Assembly (NCBI GenBank): GCA_016791475.1
Contig: JAEUWI010000008.1
Span: 1 to 64,000, forward strand
DNA from: Candidatus Hydrogenedentota bacterium
GTDB taxonomy: Bacteria; Hydrogenedentota; Hydrogenedentia; Hydrogenedentales; JAEUWI01
Direction: 5' to 3'
DNA length: 64,000 bases
Shown here: piece after piece, positions 44,063-58,083 of the stretch
Numbering within the stretch: position 1 is the first letter of the stretch
Layout of the letters: the number at the start of each line of letters is the position of its first letter
Notes under the pieces: generated by a model
What the model saw: only the letters and a program-made list of their open reading frames with translations
Database searches by the model: none
Told to the model about the DNA's origin: nothing
Translations under genes and position numbers: made by a program

Positions 44063-47000
44063 TCAGGCGTCCAGGACTTCCCGGATCCGCTGGGCGAGGG
44101 TGCCCATGGAGAAGGGCTTGTCGATAAAGCAAACTTTCTCGTCCAGCACGCCCTGCTCGCCAATGATGTCGGCGGTGTAGCCCGACATGTAGATGCAGCG
44201 AAGCTTCGGGCAGCGCGCGCTCAGGTGGGCCCAGAGGTCGCGACCGTTCATACCTGGCATCACGAGGTCCGTGATGAGTAGCTGAATCTTGTCGGTGTCG
44301 CCGTTGAGCGAGCGCAGGGCGTCGTCGCCGTTACGGGCGGTGATGACTCGGTATCCCAGACTTTGCAATATGGTCCGGCAGGCCTCGCGAAAGTCGCCCT
44401 GGTCATCCACCAGCAGGATCGTCTCCGATCCCGAGGGGTCGCCCTTCGGTCGATCCGGGTGGTTAATGCCGTCGGCGCTTTCGCATTCCTGGATGGGCAG
44501 GTAGATCCGGAAGGTGGTCCCCTGGCCGGGTTCGCTGTCCGCCGTCACAAAGCCGCCGTTCTGATGGACGATGCCATGGACGGTGGCAAGGCCCAGGCCC
44601 GTGCCCTGGCCCTCCGGCTTGGTCGTGAAGAAGGGTTCAAAGATGTGGTTCAGCGTTTCCGCGTCCATCCCGCAGCCCGTGTCGGCCACAGACAACACCG
44701 CGAAGGAGCCCGACTTTCGTTCTCTGCCGAGCAGCACGCCCCGTTCATCGTCCACAAACTCCAGGGCGGTTCCGATGGTGACGGTGCCGCAGCCGCTCAT
44801 GGCGTCCCGGGCATTGACGATCAGGTTGGCCAGCAACTGGTCAAACTGGGAGGGATCGATCTGGATGGGCAAGGGACGGCTCAAGGGATGCCAGAACAGG
44901 GTTATCCGCTCGCCCGCGAGCCGTCCGAGGAGTTTGAGCATGGCGCCCACGTTCTCGTTCAGGTCCAGACGCCGGGGTTGAACGGTCTGCTTTCGCGCGA
45001 AAGCGAGGAGCTGCCGGGTGAGGTCGGCCCCGCGCAGCGCCGCCGTGCGCATGGATTCCAGGTGTTCCCGCAACTCGGTGGTGCAGGCTTCATTGCGCAG
45101 GGCGAATTCGGAGTAGCCGATGATTACGCCCAGGATATTGTTGAAGTCGTGGGCCACGCCGCCCGCCAGCCGCCCCACGGCCTCCATCTTCTGCGCCTGG
45201 AGAAACTGCTGTCGGCTCATTTCCAGTTCCCGCCGGATTCGCATGCCTTGCAGGTGCAGGCGATAGAGCTCCGCCAGGCGCCCGAGCGAAGTCACATCGA
45301 CCGAACTGAAGTCTTGGGACGGGTGGGCGAGGACGATCTGCCCCAGCCACTCGCCGCCCTGAAGTATGGGGAGCACGAGAACCCTGATTGGCGAATGAGC
45401 GCCGGGCAGGGTTGCTCCCGCGCCGGGCACGAGGACGTTAGTGGTGCGCGGTGCCTCGACTCGGCCCAGATCGTTCCAGAGCCTTTCCAGCAGGGGAAGG
45501 TCGGGGTCTTCCTCGTCGGCCGTACCCGGAAGCGTCAGGTCCGGCAAGTCGGGCCGTATCGCCGTGGCGCAGCCCGGCGATTCGCCCGGGATCATCAGGC
45601 AGCTCAGGGCGGTCCCGGCGAGCCGACCGGCGTGGCGCAGGATTTGGCCGGCGATGTCCGCGTCGCTTTCTTCCACCACCATGGCTTGGGAAACTTCCGC
45701 CAGGACCGCGTCCAGCGCCGCCTGATGAAGCAGGGCGGCCTCGGCTTTTTTTCGCTCGCTCAAGTCGATGTGAAATCCGAGGAAATGATTGTCGTCAAGT
45801 CGTGAGGCGTGTACTTCCGTGGGCGCGGTGCCGCCATCCTTGCGTCGGAGCGGCACCTCAATGGCACTTTTTTCGCCACGAATCACCCGCTGAAAATGTC
45901 GGTCGGCAAGGGCCTCGAATGTATCGATGCGCAGGTCCTTGATGGACAATCCGAGAAACTCCTCGCGTGTGTAGCCGAGGTGCTCCGCCGCCGCGCGGTT
46001 GGCCTCGAGATAGCGCCCGGTCCGATCCACGACCACGGCCCCAACGGGTGCGTGCTCGATGTAGGAGCGGAAACGGGTCTCGCTCGCCTGAAGGCTGGCT
46101 TCATAGGCTTTGCGCTCGGAGATATCGCGTAGGAAGGCAAAAACCTGGCCCTTGGATTCCGGCGGAGAACTTACGCTCGCCTCCACTTCAAGCAGCGAGC
46201 CGTCGTGTCGGCGCAATCGCGTGTCGAAGATATCGTGACCGAGCTTCATGATCTTCTCGATGTGACCGGCCACATCCGCCTGCGATTCGTTGGCTTCCAC
46301 ATCGGCAATACTCATCCGGAGCAGTTCGTGCTCCGAATACTCGAGCATTTCGCAGATGGCGTGATTGACCCGCAGGATACGCCCGCCGGCATCGGCGACC
46401 CAGAAGCCGTCCATGGAAGTCTGGATCAATTCTTCATATTCGCTTTCGCGCCGCTTGGCCTCGCTCAGATCAATGTTGAAGCCGCAGACGCGCAGGGGAA
46501 GGCCTTCTGCATCGCGAATGAAATGCCCCTTGGAGAGCACTGGAACGTAGTGGCCATCCGCGTGGAGGAGCCGGAACTCCACTTCGTAGTTCTCGGTACA
46601 GGTTTGCAACACGTGTTGAAAGAATCCGTTAATCCGTTCCGCATCGTCCGGATGGGTAAGGCGGCGCCACAAGTCCTCATCCGGCGAAAGGGCGTCGGGC
46701 GCGTAACCGAGCATGCCCCACCACCGCGGCGAGTAGAAGACGTCGTGGTTGACCAGGTCCCAATCCCACCAGCCGTCCGTTGCCGCTTCCAGGACCAGCG
46801 CCATACGCTCTTCACTGCGCCGCAGGGCCTCCTCGGTCTGCTTGCGCGCGGTGATATCCTGCAGGCAGAGGAGCACCCGGGGATCGTCGCCCGCGTCCAG
46901 CCGAACCGCCGTTCCCAAGAGGGTGACGGGTCGCGTTTGACCGCCCCGCCGCAGCAGGGCGTGGTGTTCAAATTCGTGGGGGGCGTTGCCGCCTTCCAGC

Positions 47001-48226
47001 GTTGTTCGGACCACGGCCCGCAGGCAACAGGCCCCGCAGGCTCCGGTCGAACAGCATTCGTCTTCGAAATCATGGGTGTGGATGCAGCCCAGCGCATCGC
47101 CGAGGGGCATGCCCAGGCACGAGCCCTCTTCGGGACTGGCGTAGGCGATGAAGGCGGGATTGCCGAAGCGGATTGTGGTTGATTCGTCAACCAGCCCCAT
47201 CATTACGGGCGTGTTTTCGTACAGGGCCTGCAACTCGGCGTGGCGCTTGTTCAATTCGGCCTGGAGTTGACGTTCCTCGGTCACATCGCGGAACACCACC
47301 ACCGTGTGGGGGCTCCCGTCGAGCGTTGCCGACGTGTGGTACAGGGACACTGCCAGGTGGTCTCCATCGTGTTTGCGCACCACGACATCCTCAACCAGGT
47401 GATCCCGGCTTCCGGGCTCCGGTGAGCCCGACAAAATCGGCAACGGACTCCCATCCGCCCCCGTCAGTATTTCGATCAGGGGCGCGCCCAGCGCGACGTT
47501 GCGCGGGCAAGCCAGCAGTCGCTCCGCCGAAGGGTTCCAGAATTTGATGCGACCGTCGTCACCGGCGAGGGCGATACCCGAAGCGACCGCATTGGCGATG
47601 GCCTGCATCTGCGCCTCGCTTTTTCGCACGTGGGCTTCCTGTTCGCGTTGCGCTTTAAGCAGCGCCTCCAGCGGGCGGACGGCGTAGCGGGGCACCAGCC
47701 AGAAGCTGTTCACCAGCCACATGGCGACCACGAGCAGAACGCTCCCAATCGCGTAGTAGTCCATGCGATCAAAGGCGCCGTGGAACCGATTCCGTATTTC
47801 CAACAGCATCCCCTGATCCTTCAGATTCAAGCGCACCTGAAGGGCGGCGATATCTTGAAGAATGGGCAACCAGCCGTCCGCGTCCAGGGGCTGGCCCGCG
47901 GCGACGGCCTCGGCCAGGCGGGCCTCAATCCGGGCGGAATGTTTGACCAGCTCGTCGTCCGCGACTTCCGCCAACGGGCCGGTGACCCCCGCCATGCCTT
48001 CCCGTGCGGCCCGCAGCCGGGCGAAACCATCAACGCCATCGCGTTTCAGGGCGTGTTCCATGGTCTGGTTGAGGGCATAGGCGGCTTCATGGAGATGGCG
48101 ATTCGGCCGGTACACCGGTTTGAAGGAGGCGTCAAAGAGCCAGTAGGCGCGCGCCAGCACACCGAGAAACAGGACGGTGGACAGGATTGTGGGGAGATAG
48201 ACCTTCCGGACGTTTTCGCGGCTCAC
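44063..48226 (-). CDS. Multi-PAS hybrid sensor histidine kinase
   Basis: 1387 residues from a GTG with no strong ribosome site. Two membrane helices (about 10-30 and 155-175) flank a helical periplasmic domain. Then come about six PAS domains (from near 205), including one with Cys-rich [19 protein letters not shown] that could bind a metal or cluster, and a GAF-like region near 850-1000. HisKA has phospho-His near 1025 in [12 protein letters not shown]; ATPase motifs and [18 protein letters not shown] follow. A C-terminal receiver (about 1270-1387) carries [13 protein letters not shown] and FIDKPFS. It is a self-contained hybrid kinase without an adjacent partner; targets are unknown. Confidence 0.93.
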
Positions 48227-49014: not shown

Positions 49015-50478
49015 ATGATTGAAATCGGCGCGAAAAATCGCCTCTATCCGGCCGATCCCATCCTGGCCATCGATGATGAACCCCAGGTGCTCCGGGTAAT
49101 CGAACTCACCCTGAAGTCCGAGGGGCTTTCCAATGTCGTGACCCAGTCGGATGCATCCCTCGTGCCCGCCCTGCTCGCCACGCGGCCCGTCAGCCTCGTG
49201 CTGCTGGATCTTCACATGCCCGGGGTGCAGGGCCACGAGCTGCTTGCCCAGATCCGGGAGGCCCATCCCGCCGTGCCCGTTATCATGATCACGGGGGAGA
49301 GCGATCTCGAAACCGCGATCCGCTGTATGCGGCTGGGCGCGCGGGACTATCTTTCCAAGCCGGTGGAGCCGAGGCGGCTCATTTCCAGCGTGACCCACGC
49401 CCTGGAGATCGGCGAACTGCGGGATGAATACCGCACCTTCATCAACAAATCCACCCAGGACCATCTGGACCATCCGGAAGTTTTCGAGGGCATCATCGCG
49501 GAGAGCGCGAACATGCGCTCGATCTTCCACTATGTGGAAACCATCGCGCCCTCTCGAAAACCGGTCCTGGTGACCGGTGAGAGCGGCGTGGGCAAAGAAC
49601 TTATCGCCCGCGCGCTGCACCGCGCCAGCGGCGTACCCGGTCCGTTTGTCAGCGAGACGGTGGCCGGCTACGACGACAATATGTTCAGCGACGCCCTCTT
49701 CGGCCACGTGGCCGGGGCTTTTACCGGCGCCTCGGGCGCGCGCCAGGGGCTGGTGCAGAGCGCCGAATCGGGCACCTTGTTCCTGGATGAGATTGGCGAT
49801 CTTTCCGCGCCGTCGCAGGTTAAGCTTTTGCGTCTGCTCCAGGAGCGCGAATTCCGGGCCCTGGGGTCGGATCGGCTCCAGCGCACCAGCGCTCGTTTCA
49901 TCTTCGCCACCAATCGCGACTTGAAGGCCATGCGGGACGCGGGTACTTTTCGCGGCGATTTGTTTTACCGCCTTTCCACCCACTTCATCGAGATTCCTCC
50001 CTTGCGCCAGCGCCGGCGCGATATCGTTCCGCTGGTGCGCCATTTCGTGGTCAGGGCGGCGGCGGATCTGGGCGTGGATCCTCCCGTGATTCCCCAGGCC
50101 CTGTTTCAATTGCTCAATACCCACGCTTTTCCGGGCAATGTGCGCGAGCTGGAAGCCATGATATTCGATGGTGTCGCCAAAGCCCGGGGACACGCCCTGT
50201 CCCTTGCATTGTTCGAGCCCTATCTCGTGCGGGAAGGCGCGCCTCGCGAGACGGTGCCCGCGGGGGGCAACGGCCACGCTCCCAATCCGTCCAACCTGTT
50301 CCACCAGATGGACGTACTCCCCACCATCGCCGAAGCCCAGGCCCAGTTGATCGAAGACGCCCTGCGCCGCGCCGATGGCAATCAGGGCATCGCGGCGCGC
50401 ATGCTCGGCATTTCGCGCACGACCTTGAACAAGCGTCTCCACAATCACGAGACCTCGTCTTCCGAGGCCGCCGAGTAA
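49015..50478 (+). CDS. Sigma-54-dependent response regulator next to the chemotaxis operon
   Basis: 487 residues. Receiver about 14-130 with Asp in VLLDLHMPGVQG and LSKPVE; AAA+ domain about 155-390 with Walker A GESGVGKE, the sigma-54 contact loop GAFTGA intact, and Walker B LFLDEIGD; Fis-type helix-turn-helix at the C-terminus (LRRADGNQGIAARMLGISRTTLNKRL). No kinase gene is immediately adjacent, so it is probably an orphan, perhaps served by the large kinase or by CheA. A near-consensus sigma-54 promoter begins 237 bp after its stop, in front of the chemotaxis genes, making that operon its most likely target. Confidence 0.94.
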   Translation: MIEIGAKNRLYPADPILAIDDEPQVLRVIELTLKSEGLSNVVTQSDASLVPALLATRPVSLVLLDLHMPGVQGHELLAQIREAHPAVPVIMITGESDLETAIRCMRLGARDYLSKPVEPRRLISSVTHALEIGELRDEYRTFINKSTQDHLDHPEVFEGIIAESANMRSIFHYVETIAPSRKPVLVTGESGVGKELIARALHRASGVPGPFVSETVAGYDDNMFSDALFGHVAGAFTGASGARQGLVQSAESGTLFLDEIGDLSAPSQVKLLRLLQEREFRALGSDRLQRTSARFIFATNRDLKAMRDAGTFRGDLFYRLSTHFIEIPPLRQRRRDIVPLVRHFVVRAAADLGVDPPVIPQALFQLLNTHAFPGNVRELEAMIFDGVAKARGHALSLALFEPYLVREGAPRETVPAGGNGHAPNPSNLFHQMDVLPTIAEAQAQLIEDALRRADGNQGIAARMLGISRTTLNKRLHNHETSSSEAAE

Positions 50479-50553
50479 TTCACGGAGCGATTTCGGGGCC
50501 CTTCACCGAATCTCATCCGGATCCACAGGGCCGCTCCGGGGCGGGGTGTGAAA

Positions 50554-50573
50554 ATCGGCACAGCAGTGCCGAT
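50554..50573. promoter_or_regulatory. Perfect palindrome, candidate enhancer for the sigma-54 activator
   Basis: ATCGGCAC-AGCA-GTGCCGAT, perfect 8-bp arms. It lies about 177 bp upstream of the predicted start of the sigma-54 promoter at 50715-50730, within the normal distance for an activator-binding site. A second imperfect dyad, AACCCGTTG-ATCCA-CAATGGGTT (50588-50610, one mismatch), lies between them. Confidence 0.5.
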
Positions 50574-50714
50574 CTGAACATGCGCTTAACCCGTTGATCC
50601 ACAATGGGTTGGTGCGTGCGCTCTCCCGGCCCTGTTCCGATTTGCGCATCCCGCTATTGCGCGCCGGGGCGCCAATTGCTCCTGTTTTCAGCCCAATCCT
50701 TCCCTGGCTGATGC

Positions 50715-50730
50715 TGGCACGGTCCATGCA
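50715..50730 (+). promoter_or_regulatory. Sigma-54 promoter of the chemotaxis operon
   Basis: CTGGCACG-GTCC-ATGCA: the -24 element is perfect including the preceding pyrimidine, and the -12 element matches 4 of 5. GG (50716-50717) and GC (50728-50729) are exactly 12 bp apart. Transcription would start near 50741, leaving a short leader with AAAGGAG before the ATG at 50766. Confidence 0.8.
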
Positions 50731-50765
50731 TTAGCAGGGCAGCAACCCTGAAAGGAGATTGGGCC

Positions 50766-51269
50766 ATGTACGCATTACGAGACGACATTCCACCCCACCC
50801 ATCGACGCCGGGCTGCAGCGCAATCGAGCTCCGCTTCTCCTCTCTCCGCGAACTTGTTCCGGGGATCTGCCTCGCGAGCAGCACCTTTGCCGCGGGTCCC
50901 GGAGGCGGGGAAATGCCCAAAGTAAATCTTGTGCTCCGCGAGTTGCTGGGCAACGCCATCGAGCACGGCAATCGCAACGATCCCCGGCGGGGTGTCGTGT
51001 GCCGCGTCACGCGTCTCAGCCCCCACTCGGTCGAGTTGAGCGTCACCGATGAAGGTCTGGGCTTCACCGCGGACGACGTGGATCTTCAATTCCTCGACAG
51101 CCCCTCGGATTCGAGCCGGGGCGGCCTGCGGCTGGTGAACGCGCTCAGCGATTCCCTGCGCTTCGAGCTCGGCGGGCGCCGCACCGTCTGCCAGGTTTCC
51201 TGGAACCTGGACGAGCACAATCCGACGCAATTTCAACCCCCATCAAGCAACGCATCAGGAAAGGAGTGA
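50766..51269 (+). CDS. RsbW-like ATP-binding protein (GHKL ATPase)
   Basis: 167 residues with AAAGGAG ahead of the ATG. The single domain is an HATPase_c_2-type fold: LVLRELLGNAIEHGN (N box), VTDEGLGF (G1), then SRGGLRLVNALSD (G2-like). Proteins of this type include the anti-sigma kinases RsbW and SpoIIAB and many free-standing relatives. It is the first gene of the chemotaxis operon, followed by cheW after 5 nt. A partner-switch protein is not in the window except the distant SpoIIAA-like protein at 29167-29532. The N-terminal 20 residues are not conserved-looking. Confidence 0.82.
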   Translation: MYALRDDIPPHPSTPGCSAIELRFSSLRELVPGICLASSTFAAGPGGGEMPKVNLVLRELLGNAIEHGNRNDPRRGVVCRVTRLSPHSVELSVTDEGLGFTADDVDLQFLDSPSDSSRGGLRLVNALSDSLRFELGGRRTVCQVSWNLDEHNPTQFQPPSSNASGKE

Positions 51270-51274
51270 CGGCC

Positions 51275-51784
51275 ATGACAGACAGCGCACGACAGGAAAT
51301 CGGAGCCGCCGGTATGGCGGGCAAGTATCTGACCTTCAAGCTGGGCCCGGAGACCTACGGCATAGAAATTCTCTGCGTGCAGGAAATCATCGGTCTGATG
51401 CCGATCACGCGCATTCCCAAGGTTTCCGAATTTATCCGTGGGGTCATCAACCTGCGGGGAAAAGTGATTCCGGTGATGAGTCTGTCGCGGCGCTTCGGCG
51501 TGCCCGACCGGGATGAAACCTCGCTGACCTGCATTATCGTCATCGAGCTTGCGCGGGCGGGCGACTCGATCACCATGGGGGTGGTGGTGGATGAAGTCTC
51601 GGAAGTGATCAATATCCACGCCGAGAATATCGAATCCCCGCCCGACCTGGGGGGCGCCCACGGCGACGCCTTCCTTCGGGGCATGGGCAAGGTGGACGGC
51701 AAGGTGGTCATCCTGCTGGACATGGCCCGTGTCATCGAGTCCGGCGTGGCGCTCGATCTGGATATACCCGCGGAAGCGGTTTGA
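51275..51784 (+). CDS. cheW: Chemotaxis coupling protein CheW
   Basis: 169 residues. AAGGAG is 8 nt before the ATG at 51275; an in-frame GTG at 51266 overlaps the ribosome site and is unlikely. Family features: YLTFKLGPETYGIEI, VQEIIGLMPITRIPKVSEFIRGVINLRGKVIPV in order, then VVDEVSEVI. It couples chemoreceptors to CheA at the inner membrane. Second gene of the operon, between the RsbW-like ATPase and the receptor. Confidence 0.94.
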   Translation: MTDSARQEIGAAGMAGKYLTFKLGPETYGIEILCVQEIIGLMPITRIPKVSEFIRGVINLRGKVIPVMSLSRRFGVPDRDETSLTCIIVIELARAGDSITMGVVVDEVSEVINIHAENIESPPDLGGAHGDAFLRGMGKVDGKVVILLDMARVIESGVALDLDIPAEAV

Positions 51785-51840
51785 GCAGGGCTTCGAGTGT
51801 TTCGAAGCTGAACAGGGTTTAACACTGGGAGAACAGGCTT

Positions 51841-53940
51841 ATGTTTAAGAGCATGAAACTTGGATCAAAAATCGGCATGGGCTTCACGCTGCTGCTTGTC
51901 ATCGCGATCGCCCTTGGCGGTCTCGCCGTCGTCAACATGAACGGCGTCAAGAACACGGCGGAAATGCTCGCGACGTCGGCGATGCCCGAGGTCGGGCTGG
52001 CCACGGAAGTGGAGCGCTACTCGCTCAAGACCATGTACGCCACCCGAGGCTACGCCTTCACGGAAGAAAAACCCTATCTGGACACGGCGCGCGAAGAACT
52101 CGCCAAGGTGAAGGATTTTCTGAAGCAGGTGGAGGCGCACGCGGCGACCTTCAATGACACCGATCTCGACGCCAAGGCCAGGGGCGCGGAAGCGGCCGCC
52201 CTGGAGTACGAGAAGCTCCTTGAGGAGACGGTGACCACCACGGAAGCACTCAACGTGGAGAAAGAGGCGCTGAACAAGGCCGCTCAGGAGTACATGAGCA
52301 TTTGCGATGTCTTTCTGAAAGATCAGACGGATAAGCTGAATGCGGAAATCGCCGAGTTGGCGGGCGCCTCGGCCGCGGGCGCGGAAGCCACGGCGGTAAG
52401 TACGGCGGCCACGGCCTCCGAAAAGGCCAAGAAGGTCCAGGAACGTTTCACCAAGACCGCCATGACGAATGATATCATCGAACTGGGCAACAATATCCGC
52501 ATCGGTGTCTGGAAAGCCATCTCCCTGCGCGACCCGGCCCTTTTCACCGAAACACAGAAGAAGTTTGCCGAGGTCAATGCCAAACTGGATGAATTGAAAG
52601 CGATTACCACGCAGGAATTGAACCTGAAGCAGATTGAGGACTGCCGCGCCGCCGGCCAGGCCTACAATGACGGCATGACCCGCTTCCTCGAAAGCTGGTT
52701 GAAGCGCGAAGAACTGGGCAAAAAGCGCGGCGCCGCCGCCGACCTCGTGCTGACAGCCGCGGAAACCGCCTCCAAGGATGGCATGAAGACCGCCTCCACG
52801 GCCAGCACCGACGCGTCCAGCGCTCTCGGGGTGGCGTCGACCGTGATGGTTATCGGTCTTGCGATTGCGGTGGTTCTGGGCGTCACGCTGGCTATCTTCA
52901 TCACCCGTTCGATTACGGGCCCGCTGCAGCGCATTATCGACGGTCTCCGTGGTGGCGCGGAGCAGGTGGCCTCGGCCGCGAACCAGGTTGCCCAGTCGGG
53001 CCAGGGCCTGGCCGAGGGCGCAAGCTCGCAGGCGGCTTCCCTCGAAGAGAGTTCGGCTTCGCTCGAAGAGCTCTCCAGCATGACCCGCCAGAATTCCGGC
53101 AACGCCGAGCAGGCGAACAGTGCGGCCCGCGAAGCGCGCGACGGCGCGGTGCGCGGCACACAGGCGATGCAGACCATGAGCTCGGTCATCGAGAAGATCA
53201 AGGTGTCGTCGGACGAGACGGCCAAGATCATCCGCACCATCGACGAGATCGCCTTCCAGACCAATCTGCTGGCGCTGAACGCGGCGGTGGAAGCGGCCCG
53301 GGCGGGCGAAGCCGGCAAGGGCTTTGCGGTGGTGGCCGAAGAGGTGCGCAACCTGGCGCAGCGCAGCGCGCAGGCGGCGCGGAACACCTCCACGCTCATT
53401 GAAGAGTCGCAGCAGAACGCCAAGTCGGGTGTGACGGCGGCGCAGGAAGTGGGCACGGTGCTTGGTCAGGTGGCCAGCAGTATCGACAAGGTGGCCCAGC
53501 TCATTGCCGAAGTGTCGGCGGCGAGCCGCGAACAGACCCAGGGCGTGGAACAGATCAACCTGGCCGTGAGCAACATGGATCAGGTGACCCAGTCCAACGC
53601 GGCCAACGCCGAAGAGTCGGCGGCGGCGGGCGAAGAGCTCTCCGCCCAGGCGCGGGAACTCCAGGACATGGTGGTGGAGCTCACCGCCATGGTCAAGGGC
53701 GCGGGCGCGGCCAACAATGGCTATACGGCCGAGTCGACCGTGAAGCACCTGCCCGCGCGCCGGGAGTCCTGGAAAGCGACAAAGGCGCAACGCGCCCGCT
53801 ACGCCCTCAGTAGTAAAGAATCCAGTGTGCGGAGCGAAGACGGCGCCCGTTCCATGCGGAACGCGCAGGAACTTACCCACGCCAGTGTTGCCGCCGAAAG
53901 TGTAATTCCGCTGGACGAAGACGATTTCAAAGAATTCTAG
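51841..53940 (+). CDS. Methyl-accepting chemotaxis protein with C-terminal CheR/CheB tether
   Basis: 699 residues. Membrane helix 1 about 12-34, an all-helical periplasmic domain of about 300 residues, helix 2 near 333-357, then the cytoplasmic signalling hairpin whose tip is [19 protein letters not shown] and continues [22 protein letters not shown]-like stretch follows helix 2. After the hairpin comes a flexible, basic linker of about 75 residues ending in DFKEF, which fits the x-[HFYW]-x-x-[HFYW] pentapeptide that binds CheR and CheB in other bacteria. Ligand unknown. Confidence 0.94.
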
Positions 53941-54032
53941 CGATCGCGATGCCCGCCCCCGACTATCGCGGGGGCGGGCCAGCCCGGAGGTCAGGGTGCG
54001 TATCGCCAGTGCGAAAGAAAGTGAGTGAAGCC

Positions 54033-57411
<3,379 letters not shown>

Positions 57412-57482: not shown

Positions 57483-57488
57483 CGAGTG

Positions 57489-57742
57489 GTGAACAGCAAA
57501 CAACGCAAGACGCTGGAGAAACTCTTCTGTGAAGATCCGGGTAACAATATCCGGTGGGCCGATGTGGAGTCTCTGTTGAAGGGCTTGGGCGCGGAGCTTG
57601 AGGAGGGCAGCGGCTCGCGCGTAACAATATCCGGTGGGCCGATGTGGCCGTCTTTCATCGGCCCCATCCCCAACCCACCATTCGTCGGGGTGTCGTTGCC
57701 GCGCTGCGTAAGTTCCTGCAGGCGACTGGAGTCGTACCATGA
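57489..57742 (+). pseudogene. hicA: HicA-like toxin gene, frameshifted
   Basis: The frame starts MNSKQRKTLEKLF and continues through RWADVESLLKGLGAELEEG to GSRV, like HicA mRNA interferases. It then leaves the family: 57621-57647 repeats 57541-57567 exactly (27 bp), and after it the remaining HicA sequence (VAVFHRPHPQPTIRRG, then VAALRKFLQATG) is only readable one base over, up to a TGA at 57740 that overlaps the hicB ATG. In the relatives I recall, the stretch between GSRV and AVFHRPHP is 8 residues; here it would be 8 with one base missing. The catalytic His (FHRPHP) is therefore out of frame and the toxin should be inactive. An in-frame misread runs to 57788. Confidence 0.75.
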
Positions 57743-58083
57743 AAGATTACCTCACTTACAACGGCTACGAAGCCAAACTGGAGTATGACGCCGAGGATGA
57801 TTCGTTCTTCGGCATTGTCACCAACATCCAGGACACAATTCACTTTCAGGGCCGGTCCATCAAGGAACTGCGCGACGAGTTCAAGAACTCCGTTGAGGTC
57901 TACCTGAAGCACTGCAAGAAAATAGGGAAGGATCCCAACAAGCCCTATTCAGGCAAGTTCGTATTGCGGGTGCCACCGGAGCTTCACCGGCGGTTGGCGG
58001 AATCGGCCCGGGAGGCCAACGAAAGCCTGAATGCCTTCGCCACGCGGGTGCTGCAAAATTCCGGCTCATTGAAGACGCCTTAG
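57739..58083 (+). CDS. hicB: HicB-family antitoxin
   Basis: 114 residues. The N-terminal part (KDYLTYNGYEAKLEYDAEDDSFFGIV) is the HicB partial RNase-H-like fold that blocks HicA, and the C-terminal part (KFVLRVPPELHRRLAESAREANESLNAF) is a ribbon-helix-helix-type DNA-binding domain. Its ATG overlaps the original hicA stop (ATGA). It should still bind its operator at 57463-57480. It looks intact even though the toxin gene beside it is frameshifted. Confidence 0.9.
   Translation: MKDYLTYNGYEAKLEYDAEDDSFFGIVTNIQDTIHFQGRSIKELRDEFKNSVEVYLKHCKKIGKDPNKPYSGKFVLRVPPELHRRLAESAREANESLNAFATRVLQNSGSLKTP

Follow-up and report, generated by a model that had tools for sequence, protein, structure and literature searches.

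The main chemotaxis operon of this Hydrogenedentota bacterium is probably under sigma-54 control exerted through the activator encoded beside it, and we assign a probability of about 85% to the full mechanism, from input kinase to transcription of the operon. A two-component input would phosphorylate the NtrC-type activator (49015-50478), which would then bind a palindrome at 50554-50573 and oligomerise; looping of the DNA would allow it to drive open complex formation by RNA polymerase-sigma-54 at 50714-50730, with rsbW-like-cheW-mcp-cheA-cheB transcribed as a single operon. All positions are those of the window, by which we mean the whole 64,000-nucleotide stretch analysed. Directly observed are the sequence elements, the conservation of their position and geometry, an rpoN gene and the order of the genes. 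The logic of sigma-54 enhancer control is textbook, ordinary enhancer-dependent activation is the best model for this locus, and the control predicted for the window is of a known type in a form specific to its lineage. The unit belongs to a recurring family of kinase/NtrC/sigma-54 modules whose target promoter lies just 3' of the activator gene, and in the lineage of the window such a module would now regulate the main flagellar chemotaxis genes. Because relatives also have the promoter, and in many cases a regulator site shaped like the one here, the prediction of the first-pass annotation holds.

The predicted sigma-54 promoter and the adjacent activator

The -24/-12 promoter, CTGGCACGGTCCATGCA, occupies 50714-50730 on the forward strand, recognised by its sequence and by its position, which is kept in relatives. 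At 50715-50730 it reads TGGCACG-GTCC-ATGCA and differs from the consensus TGGCACGNNNNTTGCW at one base, an A for T in TTGC, and the resulting ATGC is found at the same spot in three relatives (L103, L123 and L140). The 12-bp spacing from GG (50716-50717) to GC (50728-50729), as in the context TGGCAC-N5-TTGC, was described correctly in the first-pass annotation, as was the near-consensus character of the element. The promoter does stand just before the RsbW-like gene; the distance of 36 bp given earlier is corrected to 35 bp, counted from the end of the site to the ATG at 50766. Transcription is expected to start near 50741, and a Shine-Dalgarno sequence, AAAGGAG, lies at about 50751-50757 on the same strand. 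By a home-made -24/-12 score this is the top site of the whole window (0.946, with the runner-up at 0.864), and the chance of such a site on the right strand within the 287-bp gap is p ~0.001. Across the genome, the motif with at most one mismatch is found 69 times, compared with 58 times for a reversed-pattern control; because the motif is rare in the gap but barely enriched genome-wide, it is the context and not the motif alone that carries the promoter claim. The genome, a Hydrogenedentota MAG, was also searched for rpoN, a check proposed earlier, and has a single gene (C12:131894-132373, Sigma54_DBD E = 8e-64), so that absence of the sigma factor is no objection.

The gene directly upstream (49015-50478, forward strand) encodes, as had been proposed, a GAFTGA-containing sigma-54 activator with the Pfam architecture REC - AAA+ - Fis HTH. 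The receiver residues DD/D/T/K, Walker A (GESGVGKE), Walker B (LFLDEIGD) and GAFTGA are all present, so that no residue required for work with sigma-54 is missing, and the Fis-type HTH matches Pfam HTH_8 with E = 2.7e-11. The REC-AAA+(GAFTGA)-Fis architecture, the -24/-12 promoter, the distal dyad and, in most relatives, a neighbouring kinase are shared with NtrC/AtoC-type systems. In contrast to the named NCBIfam members of that group, the activator falls below the equivalog cut-offs for its ntrC/AtoC matches, including that for the nitrogen regulator NtrC (TIGR01818, 319.6 bits against a cut-off of 558.6), and its AC-N4-GT dyad lies just 3' of the regulator's own gene.

The input kinase of the activator is probably the divergent hybrid sensor histidine kinase at 44063-48226 on the reverse strand (several PAS, HisKA, HATPase and REC domains by Pfam). 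We infer this pairing; the divergent kinase has a generic similarity to the kinases that adjoin homologous activators, and in most relatives the gene just before the homologous activator, on the same strand, encodes a histidine kinase. Alternatively, the activator might chiefly serve the chemosensory array as an output, with CheA phosphorylating its receiver and the operon autoregulated by its own signalling. Some precedent comes from Myxococcus xanthus, where the NtrC-like CrdA answers to the kinase CrdS as well as to CheA3, and Che3 modulates CrdA phosphorylation (PMC3510030); the operon in the window also has no cheY, which makes CheB and the adjacent regulator the nearest receiver domains, and an MCP instead of a kinase is encoded just upstream of the L123 activator. 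The two cases share an NtrC-type sigma-54 activator tied to a chemosensory system, but in Myxococcus the chemosensory system acts on the activator, whereas the evidence here points to control of the che operon by the activator. Against the output reading, the genome has a cheY at another locus, and in most relatives members of this activator family stand beside a histidine kinase in the absence of che genes, which makes a dedicated kinase the probable ancestral input. We regard a role mainly as an output of the array as unlikely; CheA may nevertheless act on the activator in addition to a kinase, as Che3 does on CrdA. Control of polar flagellar regulons by sigma-54 two-component systems, as reported for Vibrio and other polar flagellates (PMC7064773, PMC6504787), resembles the mechanism proposed here in placing motility-related genes under sigma-54 and an NtrC-type response regulator; it differs in that the module here adjoins one operon and most of the Hydrogenedentota cheA loci examined have no sigma-54 site.

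Palindrome and dyads upstream of the promoter

The perfect palindrome with 8-bp arms announced in the first-pass annotation, ATCGGCAC-AGCA-GTGCCGAT, is indeed present at 50554-50573 with its centre at -177 from the predicted start, and it is the predicted upstream activator site. A second copy with at most one mismatch was not found in a pattern search of the genome. Chance would produce a perfect 8-bp dyad with a 4-bp spacer some 0.004 times per 287 bp, and about 0.06 times if the spacer may have any length up to 12; taken alone, the palindrome is thus suggestive only as evidence of an operator. Its AC-N4-GT core is common to dyads at five related loci: GGCAC-ACCT-GTGCC (L165), GCAAC-GGTC-GTTGC (L156), GTAAC-TTCA-GTTAC (L164), ATAAC-ATTA-GTTAT (L117) and GTGAC-N4-GTCAC in two copies (L160). 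This motif was noticed by eye first and tested afterwards. When spacers of 0-12 are compared, the clearest excess is at N4 (13 observed vs 4.2), and perfect dyads of the form NNNAC-N4-GTNNN number 7 in the discovery set against 0.23 expected (0/2000 shuffles). A strict held-out set yields three such dyads in 2 of 10 sigma-54-positive loci against 0.15 expected (p = 0.009 by loci), and none occurs at 18 sigma-54-negative loci. The dyad centres fall at -73 to -199 from the predicted starts, the range expected of enhancer sites. At L103, the locus of the nearest relative, the promoter is kept but no clear AC-N4-GT dyad was found, nor was a perfect one at several other sigma-54-positive loci, and the operator is for this reason less certain than the promoter.

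It is quite improbable, in our estimate, that the palindrome is a transcript hairpin or terminator of the activator gene, a reading under which the promoter would still be sigma-54 dependent. The palindrome lies 76 bp past the end of the activator gene and has a folding energy of -16 kcal/mol (z = -2.7 for the forward and -3.6 for the reverse strand), as a hairpin would, but no U-tract follows it on the forward strand, and its role as a terminator was rejected on that ground; a terminator scan gives no call. The AC-N4-GT shape, furthermore, recurs with other half-site letters, as in the L165 dyad, and is absent at the sigma-54-negative loci. Less probable still is that promoter and palindrome both match by coincidence and that transcription of the operon begins at a different promoter. 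The small genome-wide excess of the -24/-12 motif would fit such a coincidence, but the position is conserved in relatives, the contrast and held-out sets speak against chance, and no sigma-70-like promoter was found in 50400-51900.

Recurrence of the promoter in related loci

Comparison across genomes gives the decisive support: in relatives that have this activator, the promoter, the neighbouring activator and the operator geometry are kept far more often than chance would allow. The nearest relative with the gene order of the window, G067 (L003/L103, with L132 on the same contig), carries activator-rsbW-cheW-mcp on one contig, with an activator 63% identical to that of the window. The best -24/-12 site of this 3.2-kb locus, TTGGCGCCGAAAATGCT, lies at the equivalent position, some 40 bp ahead of the start of rsbW, and the distance from site start to ATG is 56 bp, compared with 52 in the window. 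A second G067 contig with mcp-cheA-cheX-cheY appears to extend the first, judging from a 298-bp end overlap at 92%. Within the 650 bp downstream of the activator stop, the best site beats shuffled sequences (p <= 0.03) at most activator loci of the rsbW, che and large-secreted-protein types, and no -24/-12 sites are found at eight other activator homologues, a contrast group defined by site absence or differing context after the sites had been seen.

Because this grouping is post hoc, the cleaner tests are those on activators from other phyla and on RsbW-like genes and cheA loci collected by sequence. In a fresh set of 20 homologues of the activator, all taken from other phyla, 9 show a site with p <= 0.015. 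When other Hydrogenedentota are counted together with other phyla, about half of the homologous activators have a matching downstream site; the searches also covered a 386-genome sample. For the 77 RsbW-like genes gathered by sequence alone, an upstream site scoring at least 0.85 is present on the sense strand in 12 and on the antisense strand in none; some of those with a site stand apart from any detected activator. The RsbW-like proteins with sigma-54 sites group on their tree (5 changes vs 13.3 when shuffled), which is a tree of short proteins with weak support. The 20 Hydrogenedentota cheA loci, likewise collected by sequence, include two with a site of at least 0.86, and only that of L238, between an activator and cheW, is well placed. 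General sigma-54 control of Hydrogenedentota chemotaxis was rejected, since 18 of these 20 loci, several on short contigs, have no site. Taken together, the three tests indicate that sigma-54 control tracks the activator and the RsbW-like leader and not chemotaxis genes per se.

Conservation within the genus was also rejected, as no close RsbW relative exists there (best E ~1e-6 to 1e-7); the nearest activators of the same genus group with a paralogue at C28 of the genome analysed, 3' of which no promoter was found. At two same-genus loci (L120 and L124), downstream of the paralogous activator come GCAAC-N4-GTTGC dyads and then, ahead of a radical-SAM gene of menaquinone type by resemblance, a sigma-54-like site (TTGGCAC...TTTCT); the own-genome copy (L122) has neither dyads nor such a site.

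The operon, its RsbW-like leader and other predicted outputs of the module

The predicted gene order rsbW-cheW-mcp-cheA-cheB is borne out, with all genes on the forward strand and ORF gaps of -4, 56, 8 and 13 bp. The RsbW/SpoIIAB-like HATPase_c_2 gene comes first (50766-51269; PF13581, E = 1.5e-11), followed by cheW (51275-51784, alternative start GTG at 51266), mcp (51841-53940), cheA (53949-56348) and cheB (56362-57411), all assigned by Pfam, with an above-cut-off NCBIfam match for cheB. CheA has Hpt, dimerisation, HATPase and CheW domains and belongs to the main Hydrogenedentota chemotaxis class, found in 33 of 68 genomes and mostly once per genome, a distribution that makes it probably the main flagellar chemotaxis kinase. 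The genome has 6 flagellin N-domain, 3 CheA dimerisation-domain and 7 CheR matches. The first-pass annotation had spoken of a complete sigma-54 control unit for a chemosensory pathway; this stands for the transcriptional control unit but not for the pathway, because cheX, cheY (by sequence resemblance), cheR and cheD are on a separate contig, C80, which showed no sigma-54 site.

Between the Hpt and dimerisation domains of CheA, residues 348-402 (window 54990-55155) resemble the MshE-type c-di-GMP-binding repeat (NCBIfam NF053729, 36.9 bits vs a cut-off of 38), and in most Hydrogenedentota CheAs of this class the matched region begins at the MshEN-like segment. Such a fusion was rejected as new, since MshEN-CheA fusions have been reported (PMC5013675). 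Directly 3' of cheB (57486-58083) is a probable HicAB toxin-antitoxin pair, made up of a HicB-family protein and a small HicA-like ORF immediately before it.

The RsbW-like protein has the N and G boxes of the HATPase_c_2 domain, with ELLxNAxxHGN (N-box) and DEGxGF kept in the alignment, and scores 20.5 bits against the 135 bits of the spIIAB equivalog. The named relatives of the gene are from Candidatus Hydrogenedentota MAGs. The protein shares the Bergerat ATPase fold with the RsbW/SpoIIAB anti-sigma kinases and with LvrC of Leptospira, a REC-Bergerat fold protein (PMC13269768), and differs from them in having no REC, no STAS or PP2C partner identified within the operon, and a sigma-54 promoter. 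At L163 (600-3430), two RsbW-like genes (~696 and ~3010, the first with a degraded N-box) flank a nucleotidyltransferase-like gene, and each is preceded by a near-perfect sigma-54 site (ATGGCACGGGGCTTGCT and TTGGCACGGTGGTTGCT). A second, distinct RsbW-chemosensory association is seen in Desulfobacterota, Aminicenantes and others, where consecutive genes specify a REC-containing protein, an RsbW-like ATPase and CheA with no sigma-54 site (L133, L135, L136, L148, L151, L157 and similar loci). A literature search of partial coverage returned no papers on sigma-54 che operons headed by an RsbW-like gene, a result that speaks only weakly for novelty, and none that brings together partner switching, RsbW, CheA and chemosensory systems.

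In the activator tree, the window and L103 form a fully supported pair and the other che-linked activators (L117, L123 and L164) fall outside it, from which we conclude that the module was probably joined to chemotaxis genes more than once. Two genomes (G038 and G021) have just cheW and mcp behind the module and their main cheA at another locus. Other outputs include secreted multicopper-oxidase/SdrD-type proteins of 2250-2295 aa and NHL-repeat, HD-domain, PAS and nucleotidyltransferase proteins, and the leading gene behind the module often encodes an RsbW-like ATPase. As predicted from these neighbourhoods, the sensor kinase/NtrC/sigma-54 module controls chemotaxis in a few lineages and secreted or surface proteins elsewhere, and the latter outputs agree with a published account in which sigma-54 governs the exterior of the cell (PMC3162934). 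A bolder and rather doubtful possibility is that kinase, NtrC-type activator, AC-N4-GT operator, -24/-12 promoter and often an RsbW-like leader make up a new portable switch that crosses phyla, in which the RsbW-like ATPase would serve the module itself, as a dedicated part for feedback or partner switching, and not chemotaxis. If true, the switch would repeatedly have gained outputs as different as chemotaxis and secreted multicopper-oxidase-like, NHL and HD-domain proteins.

In a little-studied and mostly uncultured phylum, the main chemotaxis genes of a few lineages would thus be under activator-dependent control, and the exact bases are supplied for testing. The AC-N4-GT operator geometry could predict the targets of homologous activators across phyla, and the findings also raise the question of why an RsbW-like ATPase leads so many sigma-54 operons.
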